Below the pieces are notes generated by a model. It had not been told where the DNA came from. It saw only the letters and a list, made by a program, of their open reading frames with translations, and did not search any database. Both the position numbers and the translations under genes were made by a program. From a virus, in the IMG/VR virus record IMGVR_UViG_3300030503_000220, positions 1 to 26,695 of that record: a stretch of 26,695 nt of DNA. One strand, given 5' to 3'. Shown here piece by piece: positions 11 through 24,623 of this stretch (positions are counted from its first letter, which is position 1; the number at the start of each line of letters is the position of its first letter).

Positions 11-859
11 ATGAAAAATAGATTTCTAGCGATATTTCTGGCGTTTGCGGCCTGGATGCCGATGGTTGGGCAGGTCAACGTGCAAGGGACTGGCATCCAG
101 ATCGGTGGAACGACGTCGACGGGTGGCTTGACATCGCTGAACGGCCTCGCGAACGCTGTGATTCTGGCTTGTAATCCGCCTTTCTCCTGCTCGGTTGCGG
201 GAAACACAATCACGATTGGGTCAGCGGCAGCATTCTCGATCACTTCTTTCACCGGGTGCTCAACAGTGGAGCTCGGTACTTCCTTGGTGAACCCGTCTTT
301 CACGGCCGGGTACTCAGTCACTCCAGTCAGTGCGCAGATCACCAACACTCAGGGCATAGGCTCTCCGCTTTACCTCACAACCCCATTTACTTCAGGGACG
401 GTGACCGGGACATTCGTCCATACAACCATCGCGAGTACAGTTTTCACGCTGTCAGCGACTCAGGGGACAACTCAGACTTCGAGCTGCACTGACTCCTGGC
501 AACCGCGGATCTTTGGTGGGTACGGAACGGTCGGTGCGACATCGAGCGTGACGGCTTCGGGCACTACAGCGGTTCTGAGCAATGGAACGTCGCTCGGTAG
601 CGTCCAGCTGGGCGCGGAGACGGTTGGACAGACGTTCGGGCCCTACTGCCCAACCTCGCAGGCGGTCTATTTGCTGCTTCAGGGCGGAAGTCACACGTTC
701 GTCGACGCCAATACGGGCTTCCCGTTCGCCATGAATGCGCCAATTACGGTGACTTTCACCAATTCTCAGGGCACGGTGGAGACCAAATATCTCTACCAGT
801 CGACAAATCCCCTCACCTGCGTAAGTGGTCCGGGCTTCGCGCCGAAGGTAGCCAGCTAG
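11..859 (+). CDS. Signal-peptide-bearing tail-associated protein with Ig-like region
   Basis: The 282-residue product starts with a Sec-type leader (K2 and R4, then a hydrophobic core to about residue 20, possible cleavage before Q21). The mature part is Ser/Thr/Gly-rich. From about residue 74 (SITSFTGCSTVELGT) it resembles the Ig-like domain of many metagenomic phage tail proteins, which typically read SITSF...VEIG followed by Asn/Thr-rich strands. Six Cys in the mature part (two spaced as CNPPFSC) would suit disulfides outside the cytoplasm. The ATG overlaps a TAA at 9-11, so an upstream gene probably ends there. It is the first of five co-directional leader-bearing genes. The family call comes from pattern recognition only; a virion role is inferred. 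Confidence 0.6.
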   Translation: MKNRFLAIFLAFAAWMPMVGQVNVQGTGIQIGGTTSTGGLTSLNGLANAVILACNPPFSCSVAGNTITIGSAAAFSITSFTGCSTVELGTSLVNPSFTAGYSVTPVSAQITNTQGIGSPLYLTTPFTSGTVTGTFVHTTIASTVFTLSATQGTTQTSSCTDSWQPRIFGGYGTVGATSSVTASGTTAVLSNGTSLGSVQLGAETVGQTFGPYCPTSQAVYLLLQGGSHTFVDANTGFPFAMNAPITVTFTNSQGTVETKYLYQSTNPLTCVSGPGFAPKVAS

Positions 860-3309
860 TGAAGCGGCTACTCGTCTTTCTTAGCGCTGTCGCTCTCTGT
901 TGCGCGGCTCGGGGGCAAATGATGCCGCCGCAGATTTCCTTTACTGGAAACTTTGGCTGTATCGGGTTCCCTTGCCAGAATGCGGGAACGCTGATCTTCC
1001 CCACAGATGCTAATTACACCGCAAGCGCGCTCGAAGGCAGCGTTCAGGTCATTAAATTGACCAGCAGTGTTAGCTTGACGGCGGCGCGCTCGCTCATCCT
1101 TCCGTCGGTCACGCTCGGCTGGGGCTATTGGTTTTATAACGAGACGACTGGCACCCAGACGATAAACATCTGTGGCCCCTCGGGAACCTGCGCGGCCATC
1201 CCCCATGACAGCTATGCACATTGGGCAGGGAGCGACGGCACAAATTTCTATACGTTGCCTGGAGCCGGCTGCACGCCGACCCTCACCACCACAGGCACAA
1301 GCGGTGCGGCAACGCTTACCGGCTGCGCGTTCAACATCCCCCAGTATGTGACGCCAAGCGGAGCTTATCTCCTACTGAATCCGAGCGCGACGCAGAACGT
1401 TGTGCAAGCCTCCGGTACGTCCTATGGCTTCAGTGAGCAGAACACTGCCAACGCCGGAATAAACTTCGACGGCACCTACCTCCAATCCCTGAACGCCGGG
1501 TGGAACAACGGCTATCCATTCGCCGGCAACTCAGACTGGACAACCGTTTCAGTCCATTCGGGTGCGGCTGGTTTTATGTCCGCAACGGCTGGGATTTCAC
1601 AGTATGAGCACTGCCTGATGACGCACACAGCGGAGGGAGACAGCCAGTGCGCCTACGATTATTTCCATTGCTTCGGAAATCTGGTCAACGGTAACGATGA
1701 GGGTTGCACTTATCGGGCAGCGCACGTCTATCAGCTCGGCATGTGGTGGGGTCCAGTCACCTCGGCTACCGCAGGAGCGAACGCGACAACGCTGCTGACT
1801 ACCTCGGGGCCGTACTGCTATGGCGGGACGATTTGCAGTGAGCTAGCCTACAACTCAACCCAGTTTGCCGTCGGTGGGTGGATGGTCGATCAAAGCACCG
1901 GCGTCTCGGGTCCCTATACCATCTCGGCCTATACCCCGAATATTGACGGGGCCGACGAATATACTCTTTCCTCTGGAACGGTTACACCCTCGACTGCACT
2001 GGGAACAGTCGTCAGTTGCACGAGTTCGGTGCAGGGCAAGTTTGGGGTCTACGGGACGCAGAACTGCACGGTAAATGTATTTGGCGGTACGAACGCAGGC
2101 GGCTTCACGACCTCCTCGCACATTGTTCGCATCGGGCCTGGCGGAACAACCACCGGCAAAGAAGAAGAAGACGTTGTTACCAGCGTGGGGACTATCGGCT
2201 CTCCTTCGGCTGGTGAGCAGACGATGGTGTTGCAGTCGCAATGGCCTTTCGCAGCGGGAGACTTCATCGGTCAGGGCGGCCCTGCTGGACAACTCGTAGG
2301 CCCCAATAACGCCAACATCAGCACTGTTGACCTGGTCGGTGGCGCGCTCGACTCCACGCACATTTTCTTCGGCCACTGCGTGAAGGGTGGGTGCGCTGGT
2401 GCGGGGGGGAATGTAATTCAACCTAACGCAGTAACGGCAGGGGTCAATCTCTCACGCAGTGGGGGTACGGTTACGGCTACTCCTACCTCCAATTTCAGCA
2501 GTCTGATCTATCTCGCAGTCGGAAGCACCATTACCGTGACGGGCGCAGTCCCTTCAGATCTGAATGGAACCTTCACTATTGCCTCTACGACGGGGAATTC
2601 ATTCAATCCCATCATCACCTGGACGCAGAGCGGATCGACTGAAACCAGCAGCACGGCGGGGACGATAGGGCTTCCTCTGCCAAAAGCTCTAATGTACTAC
2701 GGCGCAATGATCTGCGGCACCAACAACGGCACGACGGGCAACGCTAATTTATGCACCAACAGCGCCACATGGAATACCTCGGATGCTGCGATTGGGGCCG
2801 AGTCCAACGAAGTTTCCCTAAATGCCTACCAGATTTATATAGGCCAGATTTCCGGATTCGATTCGAGCTACCCGAGCGGTGGAATATCCGTCACGAATAC
2901 CCAGCCGCAAGGGATTGGCTGGGACTACCAGTGCGCCAACACCTACGCCGCGTTGGACGCGTCTTGCGTTGACATAGTCGGCAATTACGCGGATGACATT
3001 GTGCTCAACACCGACCCTATAAATAACGGGGCGATTATCTACGATGCGAATGGCGGTCACTCGACAATCCCGTTCTACCTATTCCAGCGCGGAAATTCTT
3101 ATTTCAACATGTTGGTCAATCCGGCTGGCGCTGGGACTCTGACATTCGGCAACGGCGGGTCAACCCTCGTGGCTGGCGGCTATACGGTGGGCGCTACGAC
3201 TTATACCGGAACGACGGTAGCGGCTACTAATTGCGGTTCTCTGAGCGGATCCGCAGGCTGCATTGAAGTGATTATCAGCGGCGTTACGCACTACGTCCCA
3301 TATTGGTAA
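859..3309 (+). CDS. Signal-peptide-bearing tail-fibre-like protein, paralogue of next gene
   Basis: The start is GTG, overlapping the TAG of the previous gene (857-859); this gives 816 residues. The leader (MKRLLVFLSAVALCCAARGQ) has a basic start and hydrophobic core. Residues about 25-135 form a module shared with the next gene: GNFGCIGFPC, then DAN at 50-52, a TSSVSLTAARSL stretch and a paired-Cys segment ICGPSGTC. The rest is a long Gly/Ser/Thr-rich beta-type sequence with scattered Cys and no catalytic motif I recognise. The C-terminus ends in repeats of the type GYTVGATTYTGTT. The likely role is a tail fibre or host-surface adhesin, inferred from neighbours and composition. The leader is unusual for a virion protein. 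Confidence 0.6.
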   Translation: MKRLLVFLSAVALCCAARGQMMPPQISFTGNFGCIGFPCQNAGTLIFPTDANYTASALEGSVQVIKLTSSVSLTAARSLILPSVTLGWGYWFYNETTGTQTINICGPSGTCAAIPHDSYAHWAGSDGTNFYTLPGAGCTPTLTTTGTSGAATLTGCAFNIPQYVTPSGAYLLLNPSATQNVVQASGTSYGFSEQNTANAGINFDGTYLQSLNAGWNNGYPFAGNSDWTTVSVHSGAAGFMSATAGISQYEHCLMTHTAEGDSQCAYDYFHCFGNLVNGNDEGCTYRAAHVYQLGMWWGPVTSATAGANATTLLTTSGPYCYGGTICSELAYNSTQFAVGGWMVDQSTGVSGPYTISAYTPNIDGADEYTLSSGTVTPSTALGTVVSCTSSVQGKFGVYGTQNCTVNVFGGTNAGGFTTSSHIVRIGPGGTTTGKEEEDVVTSVGTIGSPSAGEQTMVLQSQWPFAAGDFIGQGGPAGQLVGPNNANISTVDLVGGALDSTHIFFGHCVKGGCAGAGGNVIQPNAVTAGVNLSRSGGTVTATPTSNFSSLIYLAVGSTITVTGAVPSDLNGTFTIASTTGNSFNPIITWTQSGSTETSSTAGTIGLPLPKALMYYGAMICGTNNGTTGNANLCTNSATWNTSDAAIGAESNEVSLNAYQIYIGQISGFDSSYPSGGISVTNTQPQGIGWDYQCANTYAALDASCVDIVGNYADDIVLNTDPINNGAIIYDANGGHSTIPFYLFQRGNSYFNMLVNPAGAGTLTFGNGGSTLVAGGYTVGATTYTGTTVAATNCGSLSGSAGCIEVIISGVTHYVPYW

Positions 3310-3318
3310 GGAGAAATC

Positions 3319-5487
3319 ATGAAGAAGCTGCTAACCATCCTCGCGGTGGTTTTTTTGTGCGCGAAAATGCACCCGCAAGCCATCTCTGTCCCGCAGATCA
3401 ACGTCTCGGGCAACGTTGGTTGCGTGGGGTTTCCATGCCTTAATTCTGGCGCGCTCAACTTCACCGCCGACGCCAATCAGACCATGACGGCGCTGCAGAC
3501 TTCTGCCAACGGCGGAATTAAGATCACGAGCTCTGTAGCGCTGACGGCAACGCGCACACTTACTGTCCCAGCTGGAAACTTCCAGTTCATGGACATTGAG
3601 AACGCGACGACGGGCGGCCAGGCGGTGACCATTTGCAGTGCGAGTGGCGGCTCTTGTGTGACGATTCCGAGCGCCTCTACGGCGGCTGGCGTATGGTTTG
3701 ACGGTACAAACTTCGTAGTCGGCTCGACAGGCGGCGGCGGAAGCATGGTCTATCCGACCGGCACGGGCATCGCGGCGGTCGTGAGCGGTTCATCATGGGG
3801 TACGACCTACAACGCTTCGAACACGATTCCCGCCAACTTCGTCTCCACCCTGAATCAGAGCACGACAGGCAATGCTGCGACGGCTACCGCATTGGCTGCG
3901 ACTCCTTCGCAATGCTCAGGGAGTCAATTTGCCCAGGGCGTGGCGGCGAACGGCAATGCAAACTGCGCGACTCCCTCGGGGAGCGGCAACACCACGTCCA
4001 CTTCACTGACGACGAACGCCCTTCCCAAGGCGAACGGCGCAAACTCAATCATCAATTCATTGGCGTCCGACAACGGCACGACGCTTTCATACACCGGAAC
4101 CGGGGGCATCTCCTCGCCAAGTGGCCTCACTGCGGGGCCGGATGGCGTACACGCTGGCATCATGTCCGTCTACGGGAACACAGCGAACCCTACCATTCCC
4201 GCAAATGAGTTTGGATGGCTGGGATTCAACGCCGCGTCTGCGACGTCTTACTTCTTCCAGCCAAGCACGACAGCACCCGCAGCGAATCAAGTAATGGCTG
4301 TTGGCGCTCCCTCGAGCGGCGTTGTGCCTGTCAGCTATATTTCCAACGCCACCACCGTTAGCGGCGTCACCTGCTCGCTTGGAAGCACCTGCGCCCCTCC
4401 GCTAGTTTGCGCCGGATCTGCTTCCCCATGCTATCTCCAGCAAATCAATCCCACGACAGGCGCGACCACTACCACTACATCCTCGATCACCACCGGAGCG
4501 ACTTCTGTGCCCGTGGCGTCCTGCGCAGGCTTCACGTTCGCTCCCGGCGCAATTGTCGTCTTTGAGAACATCAGTCAACCGGAATGGACTGTGGCTACTG
4601 GTTGCACGGGTACGACGCTAACTCTCTCGACGCGGGCTTACTACGGCACTGCGGCTGGGGCATGGTCGAGCGGGACTAATGTAATCCAAATGACATCGGG
4701 ATACTCCACCAGTGCTTCGACCGCCCCATACTTCTATACTCTCGCCAATGGAGCGATAGGCTACAACGGCTCAGGGAACATCTTAGCCAATCAGACCGCC
4801 TTCAACACGTCAGTCACGTTCTTAGGTGGGCTCGTTGCTGGTGGAGGTCTGGTCCAATTGAACGGCGGAACGACGACAGCTCTTTACCAACCGCAAGCAA
4901 CTTTCTACAATGGAGACAGTGGCGGCTGCTATACGGGCGGTCCACTGTACGCTACGCTATCGGGGGGCACGCCGTGGTGGGCTGGCGTTACGGGGCAAAG
5001 CTGCACGACGGGCACAAACCTGATTCCCCCCAATGTATTCGCGTTGGTTCCTGGGGGTGTGTCGACCGCGCCTACCACGGGCTCAATCCCTGCGTTGACG
5101 GTTACGACTGCTGGCGTGGTCAATGTCCCGACAGGTGGAAACTTTGAGATCAACGGGGTTCCGATTGGCGGCGGCGGTGGGTGTTCGACCGTTACTACAC
5201 TAAGCGGAACAACACCTGTCATCACAGCTACCAATTGTCTCCAAACCATCACGCTAAGCGGCAACTCGACGCCTACGGTCACGGGTATTACGTCGGGCCT
5301 AACCATAGGCTTTGAAATTTGCCAGCCATCATCGGGTGGGCCTTATACGTGGACTTGGCCTGCGGCGTTCCACGGTGCAATCACCATCGGAACCACCGCC
5401 AACACTTGCTCAATTCAAAGCTTTACCTCCTTTAGCGGCTCAACGATGGTCGCTAGGGACACAGGAGTTATCAATGTCGCTCCGTAA
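3319..5487 (+). CDS. Signal-peptide-bearing tail-fibre-like protein with GNAATAT repeat
   Basis: The ATG has a good ribosome site (AAGGAG at 3308-3313); the product has 722 residues. After a leader (MKKLLTILAVVFLCA), residues about 26-136 match the N-terminal module of the upstream gene (GNVGCVGFPC, DAN, TSSVALTATRTL, ICSASGGSC). Residues about 181-216 contain STTGNAATATALA and QFAQGVAANGNANC. GNAATAT-type repeats are familiar from long tail fibres of T4-like and many environmental phages. The remainder is low-complexity Gly/Ser/Thr sequence ending in a compact domain (about residues 620-722). Tail fibre or receptor-binding function is inferred. The gene overlaps the next one by 14 nt. Confidence 0.65.
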   Translation: MKKLLTILAVVFLCAKMHPQAISVPQINVSGNVGCVGFPCLNSGALNFTADANQTMTALQTSANGGIKITSSVALTATRTLTVPAGNFQFMDIENATTGGQAVTICSASGGSCVTIPSASTAAGVWFDGTNFVVGSTGGGGSMVYPTGTGIAAVVSGSSWGTTYNASNTIPANFVSTLNQSTTGNAATATALAATPSQCSGSQFAQGVAANGNANCATPSGSGNTTSTSLTTNALPKANGANSIINSLASDNGTTLSYTGTGGISSPSGLTAGPDGVHAGIMSVYGNTANPTIPANEFGWLGFNAASATSYFFQPSTTAPAANQVMAVGAPSSGVVPVSYISNATTVSGVTCSLGSTCAPPLVCAGSASPCYLQQINPTTGATTTTTSSITTGATSVPVASCAGFTFAPGAIVVFENISQPEWTVATGCTGTTLTLSTRAYYGTAAGAWSSGTNVIQMTSGYSTSASTAPYFYTLANGAIGYNGSGNILANQTAFNTSVTFLGGLVAGGGLVQLNGGTTTALYQPQATFYNGDSGGCYTGGPLYATLSGGTPWWAGVTGQSCTTGTNLIPPNVFALVPGGVSTAPTTGSIPALTVTTAGVVNVPTGGNFEINGVPIGGGGGCSTVTTLSGTTPVITATNCLQTITLSGNSTPTVTGITSGLTIGFEICQPSSGGPYTWTWPAAFHGAITIGTTANTCSIQSFTSFSGSTMVARDTGVINVAP

Positions 5488-7276
5488 ACTCATCCCCATT
5501 TTTATTCTCTCGTGCCTGCCTTCGCTCGCGCAGAGCGTCAACGGAATTCCTTCCCAAAACGTGAACGTCTTCAACAAGAATGTCATTTACGCTTCGGCAG
5601 GCAATACTAATCTCGGCGTGGCCGCGTGCGCTCTCAACACCAACATCAATTCGGGTGGTGGCACGGCGGACGACTCATGCCTTCAGGCAGACCTCGACGC
5701 CCTCGGTACGGCAGGTGGTGGAACCCTCTACATCAACGGCTATGCACTTTTGACGTGCTCAAAATTCGGCACGACCAACACTGTCGATGGCAACACGCAA
5801 ACTACGGCTCTGCAAACTCATTCCAACGTGAAGATCGACGCGACCGGAGGGGGAGTCTTCCTTCAGGCCAACTCGAACTGTACGATGCTCGGAAACAATA
5901 TTCAGGGCAACCCCGCAGCTACATTCCAAACCAACATGACAGTTGTTGGCGGAGTCTGGAATGAGAATTGGCCTAATCAATCCGTGTATGAAAACAATGG
6001 CCCATCTACAAACTTTTCTGTGTTGGGTTTTTGGTTTGGCGGATTCAACGGGCTTACATTCAACAACGTAACCATACGCAATTCTGAGGCATTTTCCGCA
6101 CTACTTTCAAACGGCACGAATTTCGTTGCACAAAATGTGACAACTACCTGGGACACTCTTTGTACTACCACGTGCCACCATGATGGTATGCACCTGTGGG
6201 GAACACTTTCAAATCTCTACATCTCTAACTACACAAACGTCAATGGAGATGATGATAGTCTGCCATTCAATACGGATGAGGGGGTGGGGTCATACGCTAC
6301 CGCCACCGCATATCTGTATCAGCGAGCTCCTTGGTCTGGTGGCGGCATAAGCAACGTCACTTATGACACCGTGAATCTCATCAACGATGATGGACAAGTT
6401 AGATGGTATGGTATCACGGCGCCCGGTGGTGTTGCGACTTTGAGCAACATCACTCTGCGCAATTTGCACGGCGCTCCGCTATCCCTTGGAATGAACAACT
6501 CTGGCATCACAGCTTCCAGCAGCATCTCAATCAGCGATTGGTGGCTAACAGGAACGTTCGGTTCTATAACGATCCCAACATCGACTGTCGCAACCATTAG
6601 TTCCACGTCGGCTGTTACGGCAGGGGTAAACGGTTCTACCAGTTACTCAATCAATGAACCCGGTTCAACTGTCGTTCAGTCGAACGCCACTCAGACACAG
6701 ACATTTTCGTCTAATGCCACTTCCGGTCTCGTTTATCGATCGGAATTGGCTGGGAATTTGATCAACGCTAACGAGTTTCAAAACATCATTGGTCTCAGTA
6801 CATCGCAAGCGTTCTCTTATGGATGGTTCAAAACAGCCAGTGGAACAGGTATGGCGTATTTGACCACACCCGGGAACGCTTATGCTGTTGATCTTGGTGG
6901 TTTGTTTGTCGGTACGACTGCACCGGTGGCTGTACAGAATGGCGCTGGGGTAAGTACGCCTGGATTCACCTGCAACACTGGCATTCAGTTTTGCGTTGAG
7001 CCGTCCTCGAATACTACTGCTCCATTCGAGGTCAGTACTTCGGGTGCGCTTCTGTCTTCCACTAGAACGGGAACTTTCGTATGCACTAGTGGAGGGTCAA
7101 TTACCGTTGCCAATACCAATGCTGTGACTGCGTCTAGTATTATCATCACCACCAATACCCCTGGGGGAACGCAGACGTATCTTCCTAATCGAACTGGGGG
7201 CACTTCAGGTACTAACTTCATCGTGACCTGCGCGACGGCTGATACCTCGACGTATAACTACGACATTTTGAACTAA
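5474..7276 (+). CDS. Signal-peptide-bearing tailspike-like beta-helix protein (GH28/pectate-lyase type)
   Basis: The start is taken at ATG 5474, with AGGAG at 5463-5467. The frame is open back to 5312, but that extension would run deep inside the previous gene and hide the leader. The 600-residue product begins MSLRKLIPIFILSCLPSLAQ. Residues about 60-90 (DDSCLQADLDALGTAGGGTLYI) match the start of pectate-lyase-like tailspikes. Short N-rich turns follow, typical of a right-handed beta-helix. HHDGMHLWG (H235, H236, D237) and NVNGDDDS (D259-D261) resemble the catalytic Asp motifs of GH28 polygalacturonases (NTDG and GDD). A capsule or polysaccharide depolymerase role is plausible. The C-terminal 150 residues look like a separate fibre domain. 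Confidence 0.65.
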   Translation: MSLRKLIPIFILSCLPSLAQSVNGIPSQNVNVFNKNVIYASAGNTNLGVAACALNTNINSGGGTADDSCLQADLDALGTAGGGTLYINGYALLTCSKFGTTNTVDGNTQTTALQTHSNVKIDATGGGVFLQANSNCTMLGNNIQGNPAATFQTNMTVVGGVWNENWPNQSVYENNGPSTNFSVLGFWFGGFNGLTFNNVTIRNSEAFSALLSNGTNFVAQNVTTTWDTLCTTTCHHDGMHLWGTLSNLYISNYTNVNGDDDSLPFNTDEGVGSYATATAYLYQRAPWSGGGISNVTYDTVNLINDDGQVRWYGITAPGGVATLSNITLRNLHGAPLSLGMNNSGITASSSISISDWWLTGTFGSITIPTSTVATISSTSAVTAGVNGSTSYSINEPGSTVVQSNATQTQTFSSNATSGLVYRSELAGNLINANEFQNIIGLSTSQAFSYGWFKTASGTGMAYLTTPGNAYAVDLGGLFVGTTAPVAVQNGAGVSTPGFTCNTGIQFCVEPSSNTTAPFEVSTSGALLSSTRTGTFVCTSGGSITVANTNAVTASSIIITTNTPGGTQTYLPNRTGGTSGTNFIVTCATADTSTYNYDILN

Positions 7277-9720
7277 TGAGACGCCTACTCATCTTCGCGC
7301 TGCTGCTGTTCTCGGCTCATGCCTGGGCGCAGTTGGCAACGCCCTCATTCGGAACATCTAGCTACGGCACGGCGGGCTTCGCCGCCCCATCCCTGATGTC
7401 GATTAGTGGGCCTACGGGAGCTACGCTGTGCGTCGGGGCCGGGGTGACGCCCACAGCGACCACGGCAGGAACCTGCGACACCGGAACAAACCGCTTCACC
7501 TACAGCGCGGCATTCAATGTGTCTTCGGGGACGTTCAACGTCATCGCGACGCAGGTGGGGCAGACCAACAGTGCGGTCGCAACGCAAACGATCACCGTCC
7601 CTACGTTCTCTTATACGGCAGGGTCGTATTCGTTCTCGCCGGTGGTGACACTATATCCTGATTACATCCATGTAGGAGGAGTCGCTTGCACAACGCAGGA
7701 CGGTTCAACTCCTACTGAGACGGCCAACGTATGCACCCACGGCACAACCTACTCCACGCCCATTACCGTCTCTGCCAGCGAGACGCTCAAGGTGCTGTTC
7801 ACCAAGAGCGGACAGACCGATTCGTCAGTGCTGTCAGCAGCCTACGTCATCACCTCACCGCAGGTATGGTTCGTGCGTGCGGACGGCGGAACCTACTACG
7901 ATGCCAATGTGACTTCTGGGCAGTGTAACGGGAAATACGATGCAGCCTACCCCGGAACAGGTGTGAACCAGAACTGCGCGGTGAATGATGTGCGGTACCT
8001 CTGGGCCGACAACAGCGGCAACCCGAACGCATGGATCATTTCAGGTGGGGATACAGTTGTAATTCGCGGATGCGCGGCACTTGGGACTCAGCTCAATCCG
8101 TCGAATCCCAACTGCCGACTTGGCTACGACAACGCAACCAGCGGCGGCGGGGCTAATTCTTGGTGCGGCTCTGGTAACCCGAATGCCACCTGTTTCAACC
8201 CGCCTGTTCCGATGGGGTCAGCAGCACAACCTACTAAGATCCTTGGCGGCTGCGCCTACGGAACCTATACCTGCACGCCGATCAACAGCAACTACCCCTA
8301 CGGCACCACGAACGAAACGCAACTCTTTGGAGGCTTCGGGCTGGCCTGGGCATTCAATCTCCAATCCACAAATTACGTGCAGATGGAGGGACTAGAATTT
8401 ACGACCCACAACCTGTACAACGGCTCGGGCTCGGGCCAGTGTACCGCCTCGGTTGGAACCCCAGCTTATCCGCAGAGTTGCTCGACCGGGACGCCTTATA
8501 GTGACTTTGCTAACAGCGCACTTTTGCTTGGACTGAACGGCAGCGCGGCCTCGCAGAACATCACCCTTCAGGACATCTACATTCACGGCATGGCGAGTGC
8601 TGGAATCTACGGGCCTCTCGGCGGCCCAATCACCATGACACGCGTCTTCGTAGGCTACAACGCCTTCGCTGGTTGGAACTTCGACGATGGGTACGGCACA
8701 GAGAACGGTGCGGGTGCCAGCATTGCAGCCAGCTACGTCACGATGAACTTCAACGGTTGCTACGAGGAATATCCCATCTCACACACCTACCCGGCGCGAG
8801 TCTGCTATGACACGAACTCGGGGGGGTTTGGAGATAGCTGGAGCGGGCAAGGAAGCGGTGGGCAAGGCGCATACCTGGCCTCCTTCACCTGCAACTATTG
8901 TGTGAACGATTACAACACCAAGGACGGATTTATAGGCCCGCACATCATCATCCCGACCATCTCAATCACCAACTCGGTCTCGATTGGGAATATGGGGTCG
9001 AACTGGAAGTGGGGAGGATCCGACGGCTATCCAAACACGACGACCTTTGAGAACAATCTTACGGTGAACAACTGCACGCGCATGAAATTCTCTATGACGG
9101 GAGTCCCTTCTGCGTTCAACACATACCTCACTGGATTCTGCCGTGCGGGTGGAAACGGGATGGCCAGCGTCATACCCATTGGCTCAACATGGAACCTCAT
9201 CAACAACACATTTATTACAGCGCAACAGATCGCCCTGTTCGTGGCTTGCTCGGGTTCGGACGTAAGCTGCTCATCGACCATCAACTCCACCAACAATGTC
9301 TTCCTTGGATATGTCGATCCCAACAATCCATACGGAGGAAGCACAGTCCCGACGCTCTACTATCTCCCCACGGGAACCACGCTGAACGTCTCACACAACG
9401 ACGAGTATGGCATGCAGGGCGGTACATGCCCCTCGACCACAAACGGGACAAAGTGCGTGAGCCCGCTCCTGCTGAATCAGCCCTCGCAGACGTGGGTGAG
9501 CGAGGCCGCGCTCGACGTATTCAATCCCTTCGTGGCTAACAACTCGTTCTACCCGACCAGCGGGAGTCCCCTGCTCCTGGCTGGCACGACGGGAGGGCCT
9601 TCGACGGATTACTACGGCGTTTCCTATACGAACCCCGCGCCGATGGGTGGCGTTCAATATGTGGCATCCTCGCCCACCAGCTTCAACGGCGTGTTCCTTT
9701 CGGGTGGGAGTATTCACTAG
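7276..9720 (+). CDS. Signal-peptide-bearing protein with chitobiase-C-like domain and beta-helix
   Basis: The ATG overlaps the TAA of the preceding gene (TAATG), implying translational coupling. The 814-residue product has a clear leader (MRRLLIFALLLFSAHAWAQ). Residues about 110-192 (FSYTAGSYSF, then TQDGSTPT, then ITVSASETLKVLFTKSG) match the CHB_HEX_C_1 family found in chitobiases and many Acidobacteriota surface proteins. Residues 38-109 look like a more divergent copy. From about residue 200 the chain becomes a long right-handed beta-helix-type sequence with many Asn, Gly and paired Cys. No catalytic residues can be assigned. It is probably a carbohydrate-binding adhesin or spike of the same cassette, and the last gene before the endolysin. 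Confidence 0.6.
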   Translation: MRRLLIFALLLFSAHAWAQLATPSFGTSSYGTAGFAAPSLMSISGPTGATLCVGAGVTPTATTAGTCDTGTNRFTYSAAFNVSSGTFNVIATQVGQTNSAVATQTITVPTFSYTAGSYSFSPVVTLYPDYIHVGGVACTTQDGSTPTETANVCTHGTTYSTPITVSASETLKVLFTKSGQTDSSVLSAAYVITSPQVWFVRADGGTYYDANVTSGQCNGKYDAAYPGTGVNQNCAVNDVRYLWADNSGNPNAWIISGGDTVVIRGCAALGTQLNPSNPNCRLGYDNATSGGGANSWCGSGNPNATCFNPPVPMGSAAQPTKILGGCAYGTYTCTPINSNYPYGTTNETQLFGGFGLAWAFNLQSTNYVQMEGLEFTTHNLYNGSGSGQCTASVGTPAYPQSCSTGTPYSDFANSALLLGLNGSAASQNITLQDIYIHGMASAGIYGPLGGPITMTRVFVGYNAFAGWNFDDGYGTENGAGASIAASYVTMNFNGCYEEYPISHTYPARVCYDTNSGGFGDSWSGQGSGGQGAYLASFTCNYCVNDYNTKDGFIGPHIIIPTISITNSVSIGNMGSNWKWGGSDGYPNTTTFENNLTVNNCTRMKFSMTGVPSAFNTYLTGFCRAGGNGMASVIPIGSTWNLINNTFITAQQIALFVACSGSDVSCSSTINSTNNVFLGYVDPNNPYGGSTVPTLYYLPTGTTLNVSHNDEYGMQGGTCPSTTNGTKCVSPLLLNQPSQTWVSEAALDVFNPFVANNSFYPTSGSPLLLAGTTGGPSTDYYGVSYTNPAPMGGVQYVASSPTSFNGVFLSGGSIH

Positions 9721-9727
9721 GAGAAAT

Positions 9728-10159
9728 ATGACAATCCAGGATCAAGTCCTCACCGCGCTCACCGCGTGGAGGGAGAACCGTCAGTACGGCCAAGCCGGAC
9801 TCCAGAGCGTGATCAATGTGATCGTGAACCGAGCCGCGCGTGCGAGTCCCTATGCGGTTTGCACGCAGCACGCTCAGTTTTCGTCCATCTCCATGCCGGG
9901 GCCGGAGTCTTACCTATGGCCTGGCGACCAAGACCCGCAATGGCTGCTGGCGCTTGACTTGGCCTCGCATGCGGCGGCTGGCACGCTGGAGGACATCACG
10001 AACGGATCCACGCTATACTACGCCCCCCACTCTATCGTGACGAAGGCAACCATCGCACTGCCCACCGGGACGATCCCCTTCCCGCAGACGTGGAATCCAG
10101 CCGTGGTCAAGTATCAAACGACCATTGGCGGTCAGGTGTTTTTTACTCAATCCACATAG
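9728..10159 (+). CDS. SleB-type cell wall hydrolase (endolysin)
   Basis: The start is ATG 9728 (AGGAG at 9719-9723); the frame is open further upstream but only inside the preceding gene. The product has 143 residues. It matches the SleB/Hydrolase_2 peptidoglycan hydrolase family: E16 is the expected catalytic Glu (WREN, where the family has GEAR/GEN), followed by the Gly-x-x-x-Val-Ile-Asn-Arg region (G24 to R35), QFSS at 50-53, an Ala-rich helix at 71-85 and an aromatic/His segment LYYAPHS at 96-102. There is no signal peptide, so a holin or another release route would be needed. It sits at the end of the tail-fibre cassette and is followed by a terminator. Confidence is high for family and moderate for the lysis role. 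Confidence 0.82.
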   Translation: MTIQDQVLTALTAWRENRQYGQAGLQSVINVIVNRAARASPYAVCTQHAQFSSISMPGPESYLWPGDQDPQWLLALDLASHAAAGTLEDITNGSTLYYAPHSIVTKATIALPTGTIPFPQTWNPAVVKYQTTIGGQVFFTQST

Positions 10160-10497: not shown

Positions 10498-10839
10498 ATG
10501 TCGAACCACCACCTACCGTATAGCGACTCAGATACTGAGTTTTTAGAGCGGCAGCAAGCGCTCTCCACAAACCCCACCTACCAGCTAAACGAGATCCCAC
10601 GCGCTGCAATTGAGCGCTATGCCGATCCCTCGCCTGAAATTCCACTCATGGAACTTGTCATCGGCATTCCTGTGCTGGTGATCACCGCGCTTTTATTGTT
10701 TGCCGGGGACTTCGTTCGTTTCTCATGGTCGCGACGGGTGAGCGTTGGCCGATTCATCGAAGACTGGTTCCTCGTTATCACAACGGTTGTCTGCCTGACT
10801 GCTGGAGTTGTGGCTGTCACGATTGGGATGGTGCGCTAA
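10498..10839 (+). CDS. Small two-helix membrane protein, holin-like
   Basis: The 113-residue product has a polar N-terminal half (residues 1-50) and two hydrophobic segments at about 52-70 and 91-111, separated by a basic loop (RFSWSRR). That size and layout suit a class II-like holin or another phage inner-membrane protein, but no specific family is recognised. A moderate ribosome site (AGAGGG, 10484-10489) precedes the ATG. It begins a new transcript after the endolysin terminator and overlaps the next gene as TAATG. Holin function is a guess from shape and closeness to the endolysin. Confidence 0.55.
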
Positions 10840-11426
10840 TGGATCTCAAAAACATCTGGGGCACAATCCTTTTCTCTGCGGCCGTGCAGACCGTGAAAGA
10901 GTTGCTAATCGCAGCGGTCAAGTCCAGAGCCGACCTGTCCGGAGCCGACCTGTACGGAGCCGACCTGTCCGGAGCCAACCTGTCCGAAGCCGACCTGTCC
11001 GGAGCCAACCTGTCCGGAGCCAACCTGTCCGAAGCCGACCTGTCCGGAGCCAACCTGTCCAGAGCCAACCTGTACGGAGCCGACCTGTCCGAAGCCAACC
11101 TGTACGGAGCCAACCTGTACAGAGCCGACCTGTCCGGAGCCAAAATCGACGGGGAGGATGTCGCGGGTATCCGGGTGTTCTCTGGGTTATACGACTACCA
11201 GATTTGGGCAATTCTTTACGCTGACGGCCGCCGTGCAGTGTGGATGGGATGCCTCCACTACTCACTCGAAAATTGGGAGTCTGTAGGCATCCGAAAGAGC
11301 AATCTATCCGAATTCCCCGACGACGGCTCGGACAAGTGTGAACAGCGCGTGCTGGCGTTTGAGTTCGCGAAAGCTACCGTTTTGCGGATGGCGCTTCCTG
11401 CCAAGAAAGAGGAGGTAGCCAAGTGA
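10839..11426 (+). CDS. Pentapeptide-repeat protein
   Basis: The start is ATG 10839, which shares its A with the TAA of the upstream membrane-protein gene; a longer frame back to 10725 lies inside that gene. Of the 195 residues, 1-29 form a mostly apolar or amphipathic helix, 31-105 are about fifteen A(D/N)LSG-type pentapeptides, and the rest is a globular C-terminal domain with W, C and Y residues ([20 protein letters not shown]). Pentapeptide repeats fold as a right-handed four-sided beta-helix. Some members mimic DNA and bind gyrase, but most have no known role, and nothing here decides it. Similar repeat-plus-tail proteins occur in many phages. The repeat DNA is strikingly uniform (see the repeat entry). 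Confidence 0.8.
10929..11153 (+). repeat. 15-nt tandem repeats encoding the pentapeptides
   Basis: About fifteen copies of a 15-nt unit close to GCCGACCTGTCCGGA occur in tandem. Variation is confined to a few sites (GAC/AAC, TCC/TAC, GGA/GAA/AGA). Leu is always CTG, and the Ala codon is GCC throughout. This uniformity keeps another plus frame and two minus frames open as spurious ORFs. It suggests recent expansion by slippage or unequal recombination. Confidence 0.85.
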
Positions 11427-14668: not shown

Positions 14669-15008
14669 AGCATTCCGAACGCATAGAGATGGCCGGGAAG
14701 TCTGCACCACGACAAAGCGAGGTCGGCACGAATACAAGTTGCGCATCGTCGAAATGCTTGTGCGCCAAGGCTACGCATGCCCGCTCTGTGGACGCGCAAT
14801 ATCAACCCAGGATGCGACGTTCGATCACGAAGTCCCGCGCGGTGCTGGAGGTTGTTTTCGTAATGATTCGATATTTCACGAAGACGGAAGCTGGCGCAAT
14901 GCTGCTGTGCATTTGATTTGCAATGGGCTCAAAGGATCACGCAGATTTCGTTGGAATGGGTTGGGTAAGTACGTTCCTAATATCAGAGAAGTTCAGGAGG
15001 CAGCATGA
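14658..15008 (+). CDS. HNH-type nuclease-like protein
   Basis: The start is ATG 14658 (GGAGGG at 14649-14654), overlapping the previous stop by 11 nt; the longer frame to 14514 is discarded because it lies within the neighbour. The 116 residues contain CPLC (C41, C44), TFDHEVP (D56, H57), N81 and HLICNGLKGSR (H85, C88, N89). This is an HNH core with a Cys4-like zinc site, though the second CxxC is incomplete (only C88 is clear). It may be a recombination-associated or homing-type nuclease. The gene is coupled to the next one through ATGA. The family call is fairly secure; substrate and role are unknown. Confidence 0.65.
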   Translation: MNPRAFRTHRDGREVCTTTKRGRHEYKLRIVEMLVRQGYACPLCGRAISTQDATFDHEVPRGAGGCFRNDSIFHEDGSWRNAAVHLICNGLKGSRRFRWNGLGKYVPNIREVQEAA

Positions 15009-15439
15009 AATGGATTGCGATGTTGATTTTGGGAGCTTCGATAGGTGCGCAGGCTCAATTGTCCTACAAGAATTTCCCGAGCAAAGTGCCTGAGCGCCGT
15101 ACCGAGTATTACGCGTGGTCAAAAGCGCGGGGCGGCGTCAAGCTCGTGATCGAAGCAAAATTCGACACCACGTTCACCTGCTATCCCGTTCAAGACTACG
15201 AGCACTATCGACCTTGTGAAGACGTATGGTCGCGACAATATGTAGGAACTCTCACGCAGAAGGATGGCAAGTTGATCGCATTTCTTCCCGACAATCCTGC
15301 CGACAAGATCATTGATCGCGACTTGATTGGCTGGGTGATTTTTGTGAGTAGGCAGGCGATTGCAGAAGATCAGCAATACATCAAGACAGCCAACGAATAC
15401 ACCGACGAGACTGGCCAGCGCTGGATTAAAAAGCTTTAG
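15005..15439 (+). CDS. Small secreted protein (signal peptide), unknown function
   Basis: The 144-residue product starts with a clear leader (MKWIAMLILGASIGAQAQ), with cleavage likely after AQA or just before Q18. The mature part has two Cys (FTCYP and RPCEDVW), giving a possible single disulfide, and a beta-rich pattern (KLVIEAKFDTTF, YVGTLTQKDGKLIAFL). No family is recognised. It sits in the middle of the recombination/replication operon, coupled to the HNH gene by ATGA. Exported phage proteins here could act in the envelope, for example in superinfection exclusion or host-surface change, but this is speculation. Its leader resembles that of the gene at 17832. Confidence 0.55.
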   Translation: MKWIAMLILGASIGAQAQLSYKNFPSKVPERRTEYYAWSKARGGVKLVIEAKFDTTFTCYPVQDYEHYRPCEDVWSRQYVGTLTQKDGKLIAFLPDNPADKIIDRDLIGWVIFVSRQAIAEDQQYIKTANEYTDETGQRWIKKL

Positions 15440-17831: not shown

Positions 17832-18179
17832 ATGAGATGGATCGCAATGGTAGTAATGTTTAGCGCAACACTAGCAGCGGTTGGGCAAGCGGCGAAGCCT
17901 ACACCCGCGCCGTCTCCGTTCATTGGAACCGCAGGTACAAACACCTTCAACATCATTTCAGGAACGCCTCCCGAATTGATCTTCGAGAAGCAGCCGGGCA
18001 CAGACTTTTACAAAGTTTACAAGCTCTCCGTGTCGCATGATTGGAACTGCGCGATTACCAGCGATTTCAAATCGAACCTCTATTCCGACAAGGGATATAC
18101 GGTCAGCGTGGCGCAAATTACTTGCGTGCGCAAGGATGATGAACCGAAAACGAAAGTGCCCACTGCGCCTCACCAGTAG
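17832..18179 (+). CDS. Small secreted protein (signal peptide), unknown function
   Basis: The start is ATG 17832, 7 nt after GGAGG. The 115-residue product begins MRWIAMVVMFSATLAAVGQA, a clear leader very like that of the secreted protein at 15005. The mature part is Pro-rich at first (AKPTPAPSPF), then beta-type with two Cys (WNCAITSD and QITCVRKDD), again a likely single disulfide. No family is recognised. An envelope role is inferred only from the leader. The gene stands apart from its neighbours with short non-coding gaps on both sides. Confidence 0.55.
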   Translation: MRWIAMVVMFSATLAAVGQAAKPTPAPSPFIGTAGTNTFNIISGTPPELIFEKQPGTDFYKVYKLSVSHDWNCAITSDFKSNLYSDKGYTVSVAQITCVRKDDEPKTKVPTAPHQ

Positions 18180-20300: not shown

Positions 20301-20551
20301 AAATCGACCTTCAGCACCTTCTATCCAACTGGAAGTCCACAGCCCAGTCGATCCTCACCACCACCTTTGCCCTAACCGGCGCTTTGATGGTATCGAACGT
20401 CATCTCGGCTAAGACCGCAGCCATCATGGGGACGGCAAACGCTGTGTGCAAGATCCTCGTGGGTGTCCTCCAAACCGACGGCATCCAAATTCCCGCAAAC
20501 TCGACGGTCAAGCAAACCACTACAATTCAGACCCCAGGAGATACAATATGA
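20297..20551 (+). CDS. Small membrane protein, holin-like
   Basis: The start is GTG 20297 (GTGA overlap); the longer reading to 20255 is inside the previous gene. The 84 residues have NWKSTAQSILTTTFALTGAL, then a second less hydrophobic helix (AAIMGTANAVCKILVGVL), and a polar Thr/Gln-rich tail. A short amphipathic start with W-K before a membrane helix is common in phage holins. The call rests on shape only. It lies in the small late gene group near the packaging genes. Confidence 0.5.
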   Translation: MKIDLQHLLSNWKSTAQSILTTTFALTGALMVSNVISAKTAAIMGTANAVCKILVGVLQTDGIQIPANSTVKQTTTIQTPGDTI

Positions 20552-22384: not shown

Positions 22385-22723
22385 ATGAATGACGAGACTT
22401 CCACTGGAAACAGCGGCAAAAAGAGAGGGAGAATTGAGAACCTCAAGCCGTTCAAGCCAGGACAGAGCGGAAATCCGTCCGGGCGTCCTAAAAAGAAGCC
22501 TGTGACCGAGATGTACGAGGCCATTTTCAGCGACCCTGAGGCGATGAAGGATCTAAGTATCGCGATCAAGCGGGCGCTCAACAAGGGCTCTATGGCAATG
22601 GTTCTGCAGCTCAAAGAGATGACTGACCGCGTTGAGGGCAAGGTCACGCAGGCGATTGAGGCTGACATTACCGTGAACCTTGCCGATGCGATTGCACAGG
22701 CGAGGAAGAGGGCTGGACGATGA
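22385..22723 (+). CDS. DUF5681 protein, probable small terminase-type subunit
   Basis: The start is ATG 22385; the frame is open to 22304 but only inside the previous gene. The 112 residues carry FKPGQSGNPSGRPKKK (about 23-38), the hallmark of the DUF5681 family, then helices (AIKRALNKGSMAMVLQLKEM). DUF5681 proteins commonly sit directly before large terminase genes and are thought to act like a small terminase subunit. Here a J-domain gene lies between it and TerL. It overlaps the J-domain gene by ATGA. Confidence 0.75.
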   Translation: MNDETSTGNSGKKRGRIENLKPFKPGQSGNPSGRPKKKPVTEMYEAIFSDPEAMKDLSIAIKRALNKGSMAMVLQLKEMTDRVEGKVTQAIEADITVNLADAIAQARKRAGR

Positions 22724-23169
22724 AGAATTGGCGCGAAGTATTGCAGTTGCAATCTCCTTCCGTATCGAAGAATCAAGTCGAGTCTAGGTTTCGCATTCTC
22801 GCGAAGAGCGCCCACCCTGACGCTGGCGGAAGCACTGAAGCGATGACGGAGTTGAACCTGGCTAAGCGCGAGGCGCTGATGGAGATTTCGCGCCCACCGG
22901 CTCCTGTCGTGCAACACCCTCTTGGGCAGTTTCAGAATAACGCTTCACAGCAGCAGGCAATGAATGCCGGGATGGGACAACAGCAAGGTTGGTATGGGCA
23001 GGGTTTGGGCAATATGTATGGCTCTTCAGCCGGTGCTTCTGGCTACCAGTCTGTAAGAAATGAAGCCGTATATGTGGATGTTGCGCGTGAGGAATCAAAC
23101 GATCGCAAAGATGCAAGGACCGTGCGCACCTCCTCCGCTTGGCAAAAATTCTGGAATGCCATTACGTGA
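22720..23169 (+). CDS. J-domain (DnaJ-like) protein
   Basis: The 149 residues begin with a J-domain-like region: NWREVLQL, a helix (VESRFRILAKSAH), then HPD at 32-34 followed by AGGS and a helix with ELNLAKREAL. The HPD tripeptide is the residue set that stimulates DnaK ATPase. The remainder is a Gln/Gly/Met-rich linker (about 65-110) and a polar tail. The chain is far shorter than full DnaJ and has no zinc domain. A phage J-protein between small and large terminase genes may recruit host DnaK for packaging or capsid assembly; that link is inference. It overlaps the likely TerL start by 4 nt. Confidence 0.7.
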   Translation: MKNWREVLQLQSPSVSKNQVESRFRILAKSAHPDAGGSTEAMTELNLAKREALMEISRPPAPVVQHPLGQFQNNASQQQAMNAGMGQQQGWYGQGLGNMYGSSAGASGYQSVRNEAVYVDVAREESNDRKDARTVRTSSAWQKFWNAIT

Positions 23170-24623
23170 AGGGTGGATTGGCCGCCGACGAACTTGAGTT
23201 GGCGATGGACATTGGGAGCTTCAGTCTAGACCCTCCCGGCTTCATGAAGTACGCATTTCCGTGGGGGAGTGAGAAACTGCCTGCTCCTGGACCCCGGACG
23301 TGGCAGAATGACATCAACTCGCTGGTTGCCAGTCACTTCGGCAACCCAGAGACACGTTTCCAACCGCTGCAAATCGCTGTAGCCTCTGGGCACGGTATCG
23401 GTAAGTCTGCCGAGATTGGCATGCTGATCGATTGGGCGATGTCGACGTGCGAAGACTGCAAGGTCGTGGTCACAGCCGGCACAGGCACGCAGCTCGCTAC
23501 GAAGACGGCGCCAGAAGTGCAGAAGTGGTTTCGCTTGGGCCTAAATGTTCACTGGTGGGACATCAACGCGACGTCGATTCGCGTCAAGGACCCAAACCAT
23601 CAGGCAGGGTGGCGCGCAGACTTCATCACCTGGTCAGTGCAGAAGACGGAAGGATTCGCTGGCCTTCACAACCACGGTAAGCGCATCGTCATCATCTTCG
23701 ACGAAGCGAGCTCGATTGACGACATTATTTGGGAAGTCGCCGAAGGCGTCCTAAGTGATGAAAACACAGAGATTATCTGGATCGCATTTGGGAATCCTAC
23801 TCGGAATACGGGGGAATTCTATCGTGCAATCACCGGAGCCAACCGCTGGCATAAGCGTCAGATTAACTCTCGCACCGTCGAAGGGACGAACAAAGCTCTA
23901 CTGGACGCCCAGATTACGGAATGGGGAGAAGATTCAGATCGAGCTCGTGTCCGAATCCGAGGGGAGTTTCCGCGTGGTGGTTCTACGCAATTTATCTCGG
24001 GAGAGCTCGTAGCCCAGGCGCGCAAAAGGATCGTTGACGGCTACCAGGAGATGCCCAAGATCCTCGGGGTAGATGTGGCGAGGTTCGGTGACGACAGGTC
24101 CATCATTTGCCGGCGCCAGGGACGCAAAGCTGACTTCATCGGCAAGTTCTATGGGGTTGACACGCAGACCCTGGGCGGTAAGGTGCAGGAAGCCATTGAC
24201 CGCGAGCGTCCTGATGGCGTGGTGATTGACGGAGACGGAATTGGTGGGGCGGTGTTTGACTTCCTCAAGGCTCGGGGATATGACCGGAAAACGCTGTTGG
24301 TGGAGTTTCACGGTGGGGGCACCCCGAGCGATCCGCACAAGTATTTGAATAGACGCGCAGAGATTTGGGGTGGGATGAAGGAATGGCTTGAAGGCGGCCA
24401 GATCCCAGACGAGGCTGAAGTTGAGACAGACCTCACCGGGCCCGATTATGGCTATCACCCGACAAAGGGGTGTTTGGCGCTTGAGAAGAAGGACGAAATG
24501 AAGGCGCGCGGCGTGGATTCTCCAGACTTGGGAGACGCGCTGGCAATGACGTTTGCTGTGAAGATTGCACCACCGAAACCTAAACCGCAAGGACCAAAGA
24601 GACCAGTTTCACAATGGGGCTGA
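23166..24623 (+). CDS. terL: Terminase large subunit
   Basis: The start is taken at GTG 23166, giving a GTGA overlap with the J-domain gene; TTG 23139 in the same frame is the alternative. With the GTG start the product has 485 residues. The N-terminal ATPase has the Walker A SGHGIGKS (about 74-81) and Walker B IVIIFDEAS (D179, E180). The C-terminal RNase H-like nuclease shows GVDVARFGDD (D303), VVIDGDGIGG (D355) and SPDLGDALAM (D454, D457). All motifs seem complete. Its N-terminus (FPWG...GPRTWQ) resembles terminases of P22-portal podoviruses. It translocates and cuts genome DNA into proheads. Confidence 0.9.
   Translation: MKGGLAADELELAMDIGSFSLDPPGFMKYAFPWGSEKLPAPGPRTWQNDINSLVASHFGNPETRFQPLQIAVASGHGIGKSAEIGMLIDWAMSTCEDCKVVVTAGTGTQLATKTAPEVQKWFRLGLNVHWWDINATSIRVKDPNHQAGWRADFITWSVQKTEGFAGLHNHGKRIVIIFDEASSIDDIIWEVAEGVLSDENTEIIWIAFGNPTRNTGEFYRAITGANRWHKRQINSRTVEGTNKALLDAQITEWGEDSDRARVRIRGEFPRGGSTQFISGELVAQARKRIVDGYQEMPKILGVDVARFGDDRSIICRRQGRKADFIGKFYGVDTQTLGGKVQEAIDRERPDGVVIDGDGIGGAVFDFLKARGYDRKTLLVEFHGGGTPSDPHKYLNRRAEIWGGMKEWLEGGQIPDEAEVETDLTGPDYGYHPTKGCLALEKKDEMKARGVDSPDLGDALAMTFAVKIAPPKPKPQGPKRPVSQWG

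Follow-up and report, generated by a model that had tools for sequence, protein, structure and literature searches.

Tandem tail-fibre and tailspike genes with Sec signal peptides suggest an extracytoplasmic route for adhesins in phages of Terriglobia

In textbook tailed phages, virions are built wholly in the cytoplasm, fibres included. In P22, the tailspikes are the last part to be attached, and they also bind heads in vitro. Virion proteins that do have signal peptides include the inovirus coat proteins pIII and pVIII. As for tail fibres with such leaders in tailed phages, we found no description in the open part of PubMed Central, which fits the suggestion of an earlier note on the DNA studied here that the arrangement is undescribed. 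That DNA, hereafter the window, is a 26.7 kb IMG/VR fragment from a soil phage (IMGVR_UViG_3300030503_000220), the first 9.7 kb of which hold five consecutive genes for proteins of 282, 816, 722, 600 and 814 aa with predicted Sec leaders ('leadered' proteins in what follows). The best explanation of these genes is that they form a cassette for adhesins (tail fibres or tailspikes) in a podophage of Terriglobia (Acidobacteriota). We propose, with a probability of roughly two in three, that such adhesins are exported via Sec, oxidised in the periplasm and joined to virions at or after lysis. On balance we also favour the broader view that podo-, sipho- and myoviruses of Terriglobia share a separate extracytoplasmic adhesin route, which would amount to a second, previously unrecognised compartment of virion assembly. 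The cassette and the gene that follows it are as follows.

11..859, + strand: gene 1, 282 aa, leadered, fibre-like; leader approximately 11-70, predicted cut MKNRFLAIFLAFAAWMPMVG↓Q (then VNV); 6 mature Cys
859..3309, + strand: gene 2, 816 aa; leader 859-915, predicted cut MKRLLVFLSAVALCCAARG↓Q; 22 mature Cys
3319..5487, + strand: gene 3, 722 aa; leader approximately 3319-3378; 18 mature Cys; GNAATAT motif
5474..7276, + strand: gene 4, 600 aa; leader 5474-5530, predicted cut MSLRKLIPIFILSCLPSLA↓Q; 10 mature Cys
7088..7267, + strand: K1-lyase_C-like C-terminal module of gene 4 (capsule-lyase tailspike C-terminus; Pfam, below cut-off)
7276..9720, + strand: gene 5, 814 aa; leader 7276-7329, predicted cut MRRLLIFALLLFSAHAWA↓Q; 24 mature Cys
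7693..7845, + strand: Fn3_assoc / CHB_HEX_C_1 domain in gene 5
9728..10159, + strand: cell-wall hydrolase (Hydrolase_2, endolysin), leaderless, directly 3' of the fibre cassette

The earlier note had described five consecutive genes next to an endolysin, all with Sec leaders and many paired Cys residues, and our analysis upholds each of these points. The open reading frames (ORFs) are present and tightly packed, most starts overlapping the preceding stop; gene 2 starts with GTG and overlaps the stop of gene 1 by 1 nt. Leaders were called with a rule set of our own, based on the charge of the n-region, an uncharged h-region and an AXA-type c-region; that the calls come from rules and not from SignalP weighs against our proposal. 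In a section of the E. coli K-12 genome used for calibration, the rules found 11/11 exported proteins. Genes 2 to 5 of the window pass a stricter version of the rule, and gene 1 has good n- and h-regions, its sole failure being a Met at position -3. For gene 3, the cut might fall after residue 20 or after residue 23. Elsewhere in the window, convincing leaders are found only in two small proteins encoded among replication genes (15005-15439 and 17832-18179, + strand), with two mature Cys each; a third rule match, at 20484 on the - strand, was set aside as a probably spurious antisense ORF. Rule-based tests do yield false positives (4/32 of the other E. coli proteins were called), and chance hydrophobic starts or mis-binned host genes might thus be invoked. 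This explanation can practically be discounted: composition-matched shuffles pass at 0.15-0.5%, terminase and portal genes of phage type lie on the same contig, as listed below, and the recurrence of leaders in isolates with known hosts refutes it.

23139..24623, + strand: terminase large subunit, leaderless, indicating phage identity
25629..26695, + strand: P22-type portal (P22_portal, E 4.8e-71), leaderless, truncated at the contig end

Even cysteine counts are the general tendency among exported proteins that form disulfides, and have been used as a criterion for them (PMC7678975). We compared leadered proteins whose mature part is at least 250 aa long (n = 79) with leaderless genes of the same contigs. 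The mature Cys count is even in 75/79 of the former (p 2.6e-18, p-values that overstate certainty because the sequences are related) versus 166/382 (43%) of the latter. Even counts were also found for 59 of 63 representatives after clustering (one per cluster) and for 17/19 in the coarsest clustering. The window follows the same pattern, with 6, 22, 18, 10 and 24 mature Cys in genes 1 to 5. Where the leader itself contains an odd number of Cys, the mature part is even in 28/28 proteins and the full-length chain in 0/28, and even parity peaks exactly at the predicted cut and drops to either side. The cut motif is A-x-A↓Q-like, with Gln at +1 in 51/79 and Ala at -1 in 58/79 leadered proteins. 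These parity counts are hard to explain unless the leader is removed and the mature chain oxidised; export, leader cleavage and disulfide formation are therefore strongly supported as sequence-based predictions. The hydrophobic N-termini by themselves would fit an uncleaved leader, acting as an anchor or as a trimerisation or assembly segment in a fibre that stays in the cytoplasm or is tethered to the membrane, and the earlier note had considered a membrane anchor or some other role of this kind. We regard it as very unlikely, as it accounts neither for the cut motif nor for a parity that is even only after removal of the leader, with its peak at the cut, and as leaderless relatives begin at the start of the mature chain.

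Those relatives belong to the tailspike domain family phrog_26190, of which we collected 93 non-identical proteins, 32 leadered (two of them called by eye after a miss by the rules) and 61 leaderless. The domain is preceded by 16-34 residues in the 32 leadered members and by 0-5 residues in nearly all 61 leaderless ones, and the two kinds start alike once the leader is removed at the predicted cut. Leadered members contain 1.98 Cys per 100 aa versus 0.49 in leaderless members, and a CxxC pair is present in 18 of the former and none of the latter. In this family, the leader thus looks like a clean N-terminal addition to the tailspike domain. On the family tree the trait shows about six changes, at least three of them forced by well supported branches, and therefore the leader appears to have been gained or lost repeatedly. 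Convincing domain matches in Terriglobales genomes are all leadered (7/7), and none of those in Pseudomonadota is leadered; one match in another acidobacterial genome (L221) is leaderless, as are the cultured proteobacterial phage proteins with this domain. A search for PF24146 in 396 Acidobacteriota genomes gave no match, but the controls were silent too, making it uninformative. In-frame start codons do occur close to the beginning of the mature part in some leadered genes (ATG in 10/32), which might allow for two forms, an exported leadered one and a cytoplasmic one, made from an internal start, that enters virions. There is little to recommend this idea: an internal start codon with a Shine-Dalgarno sequence at the mature N-terminus was found in 0/32 leadered genes of the family and in none of the five window genes, and a cytoplasmic form would not need even Cys parity.

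The structure of a mature leadered member of the family was predicted with a pLDDT of 83; one alignment used for structure prediction left out the rows of the Tunturi phages presented below. The model of the leadered member resembles the head-binding domain of the P22 tailspike (1lkt; Z 10.8, 3.0 Å over 88 residues), the tailspike of cyanophage Pam1 (Z 10.8) and the tail complex of Pan3 (Z 13.2). Profile searches retrieved the Pam1 and Pan3 chains at E ~1e-12 with both kinds of members and at 4e-9 when leadered members were used by themselves. Prophage L260 (E 6.5e-94) and phage G003 (E 1.5e-101) each encode, close by, a gp10-type protein (phrog_578), the docking partner of such tailspikes, and this protein has no leader; G003 encodes a DNA-ejection protein as well. 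Judging from the modelled fold, phrog_26190 is a particle-binding domain. As a P22-type docking domain is found behind a leader, a tail-docking protein would therefore be made with an export signal.

Tandem leadered fibre genes are present in most examined phages of this bacterial group and are not peculiar to one contig. Relatives identified by their terminase have two to four such genes in tandem, after ejection-protein genes. In G003 they sit just 5' of the endolysin gene; in G002, the large terminase subunit (TerL) of which is 85% identical to that of the window, one leadered gene is visible before the contig end breaks the cassette. Prophages of Terriglobales genomes also carry tandem leadered fibre or spike genes, and two unrelated large phage contigs have C-terminal modules in common with genes 3 and 4, and leaders too. 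A leadered protein was also noticed in the head region (L087:8661-9404; L260:13942, - strand; L262:14998, - strand), with weak PHROG matches to virion or tail proteins. In G009, its homologue (L097:3651), encoded directly 3' of the coat gene, lacks a leader. It is possible that this head-region protein represents a second leadered virion family.

Five Tunturiibacter phages have been isolated, and the main text of their description mentions neither signal peptides nor mass spectrometry of structural proteins (PMC11924767). Leadered tail-fibre/spike cassettes are found in Tunturi 1 (a podovirus), Tunturi 4 (a siphovirus) and Tunturi 5 (a jumbo myovirus). In Tunturi 1, leaders are predicted for 5/5 cassette proteins (gp12, gp13, gp14, annotated as tail spike, gp16 and gp17, annotated as virion structural protein), encoded just 5' of the endolysin gene, versus 1/28 other proteins checked. 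In Tunturi 4, gp113 and gp114, both near the end of the record, are leadered. For the tail fibre gp111 of the same phage, the annotated start (L242:30433) seems to lie too far downstream; read from an in-frame start 5' of it, the protein has a leader like that of gp113 (L242:30076-33171, PP885687). As for Tunturi 5, gp337-gp342 are leadered, three of which are annotated as tail fibres, and the sheath, head and protease genes are leaderless. Within this cassette, gp339 and gp340 (L282:28138-28921) are small, leadered and Cys-free, and might be accessory or chaperone proteins. The same leader check found no leadered fibres in Tunturi 3. Tunturi 3 and Tunturi 1 share host strain X5P2, and we thus rejected the idea that leaders are a consequence of the host alone.

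The chief rival to virion incorporation is that the leadered proteins are exported without being virion parts, as secreted exopolysaccharide depolymerases, decoys or superinfection-exclusion factors acting at or around the infected cell. It is most plausible for gene 5, a putative carbohydrate-active beta-helix protein, the low-confidence structure model of which (pLDDT 51) gave weak matches to lyases, epimerases and tailspikes and is too weak to be used. Gene 5 is related to secreted host proteins: it shares 59% identity with a stretch of a lipoprotein encoded on an Acidobacteriaceae chromosome. Relatives of gene 5 among secreted beta-helix proteins are encoded on host chromosomes at L255:4401-7445 (- strand), L258:8183 and L259:7996; they include the 59% identical protein, with a lipoprotein-type leader, and one encoded beside glycosyltransferase genes. 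Homologues also occur in cultured phages, namely gp17 of Tunturi 1 (28% identity over 653 aa) and gp114 of Tunturi 4 (26% over 551 aa). The sequence relationships are best explained if gene 5-type members have been exchanged between phages and host secreted beta-helix proteins. A secreted role also finds some support in a lone leadered tailspike-domain protein encoded amid chromosomal genes of an Acidobacteriales genome (L127:9998-11728), with no phage genes seen nearby, and in WceF of Pantoea, a secreted tailspike-like enzyme (PMC7949094). As an account of the whole set, we nevertheless consider a purely secreted role unlikely. A P22-type particle-binding domain is retained in the commonest leadered family, the phages of which also encode gp10; whole genomes such as those of G003 and Tunturi 1 have no other long fibre candidate; and all long fibre genes are leadered in three cultured, plaque-forming phages. 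The earlier note had hesitated between exported phage adhesins and conversion factors. The former are strongly supported by the predicted leaders, the cleavage signature, the even Cys counts, the tailspike-type domains and the position in tail cassettes. Conversion factors are possible for single genes, in view of the host-encoded secreted relatives of gene 5, but as a general explanation they fall short because they leave unexplained both the P22-type domain on the commonest leadered family and the presence of the same cassettes in plaque-forming phages.

According to the export route that we favour, each cassette protein would carry a Sec leader that directs it into the periplasm and is removed there by signal peptidase, after which the cysteines of the protein would pair into disulfides. 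Capsid, portal, tail-hub and ejection proteins would remain cytoplasmic. Oxidised fibres and released particles would come together at lysis or shortly thereafter, each fibre docking by a particle-binding domain at its N-terminus, as the P22 tailspike does when assembly is completed. The gain would be adhesins or depolymerases stabilised by disulfides, and excess copies in soluble form could in addition clear away exopolysaccharide of the host.

Several other points count against this proposal. The location of the proteins in virions or in the periplasm is deduced from sequence and not from experiment; we infer virion incorporation, docking and timing, including the encounter of exported fibres with particles. 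The parity statistics use related sequences, a kinship that clustering reduces but does not remove, and gene 5 has secreted, non-phage homologues in hosts. Tunturi 3 infects the host strain of Tunturi 1 without leadered fibres, so export is dispensable for infecting that host. Finally, the particle-binding domain was found in the related family, including G002, and not on the five genes of the window, because the contig begins at gene 1 and the upstream gene would be cut off. In an Acidobacteriaceae prophage, a homologue of gene 1 lies directly 3' of a particle-binding-domain gene. For the five window genes themselves, the case is built on their leaders, Cys parity, shared modules and synteny.

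A leadered protein encoded in a prophage tail cassette of Acidobacteriaceae (L264:9645) is homologous to gene 1 (E 4e-51), and genes 2 and 3 have an N-terminal domain in common. When gene 3 was searched directly against the phage database, nothing was matched; beyond near-identical contigs, scans with this gene and with gene 4 retrieved only their C-terminal modules. The module of gene 3 (approximately 82 aa) shares 62% identity with its counterpart in a leadered fibre from a phage of 62 kb, and the K1-lyase_C-like module of gene 4 also forms the end of leadered proteins in other phages (L106, L108). Of the tailspike traits reported in the earlier note, the GNAATAT motif is present in gene 3. 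The K1-lyase_C match in gene 4 is sub-threshold (23.8 bits versus a Pfam cut-off of 27, E 6e-5) and is best seen as a resemblance only. With the window terminase, the phage database yielded only distant cultured phages; the terminases of Pseudomonas phage AF and of epsilon15-like phages are 46-49% identical to it. In Pseudomonas phage AF, a proteobacterial phage, a hypothetical protein of 340 aa encoded after the lysis genes (AF_025, L284:24808-25830) has a leader-like start. Elsewhere in the window, a pentapeptide-repeat protein (10839-11426, + strand; Pfam E 2e-29) is encoded downstream of the endolysin, and an ORF with a weakly DnaJ-like N-terminus (22720-23169, + strand) adjoins the terminase gene.

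If our proposal is correct, tailed-phage virions are assembled in two compartments, fibres stabilised by disulfides can exist in nature, and exported fibres in soluble form may be active before lysis. Adhesins in soil viromes might then be overlooked or mislabelled as secreted host-type enzymes, and Cys parity offers an inexpensive way to screen any virome for the trait. The three cultured phages make the proposed route directly testable.

Among described systems, the tailspikes of P22 (gp9), Pam1 and Pan3 are like the leadered relatives in their N-terminal particle-binding fold (Z 10.8-13.2) and in having a gp10/Hc3 partner in the same genomes. They are leaderless and cytoplasmic, whereas the leadered relatives combine a predicted cleavable Sec leader with abundant, even-numbered Cys. 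The tail spike of Xanthomonas phage PBR31, the tailspike of Shewanella phage X14 and the protein of Rhodoferax phage P26218 have the phrog_26190 domain in the same register as the leadered proteins but, unlike these, are leaderless, with the domain starting from Met1, few Cys and no CxxC. Inoviruses do make virion proteins with signal peptides, but they are non-lytic, filamentous and membrane-assembled, with different proteins and no tailed particle. WceF of Pantoea stewartii is an exported tailspike-like beta-helix enzyme acting on exopolysaccharide (PMC7949094), yet it is bacterial, uses Tat and is encoded outside any phage cassette, whereas the window proteins have Sec leaders and belong to a phage cassette. 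Tunturi 1, 4 and 5 have tandem leadered tail-fibre genes with even Cys numbers as in the window but represent different phage groups (podo-, sipho- and jumbo myoviruses).

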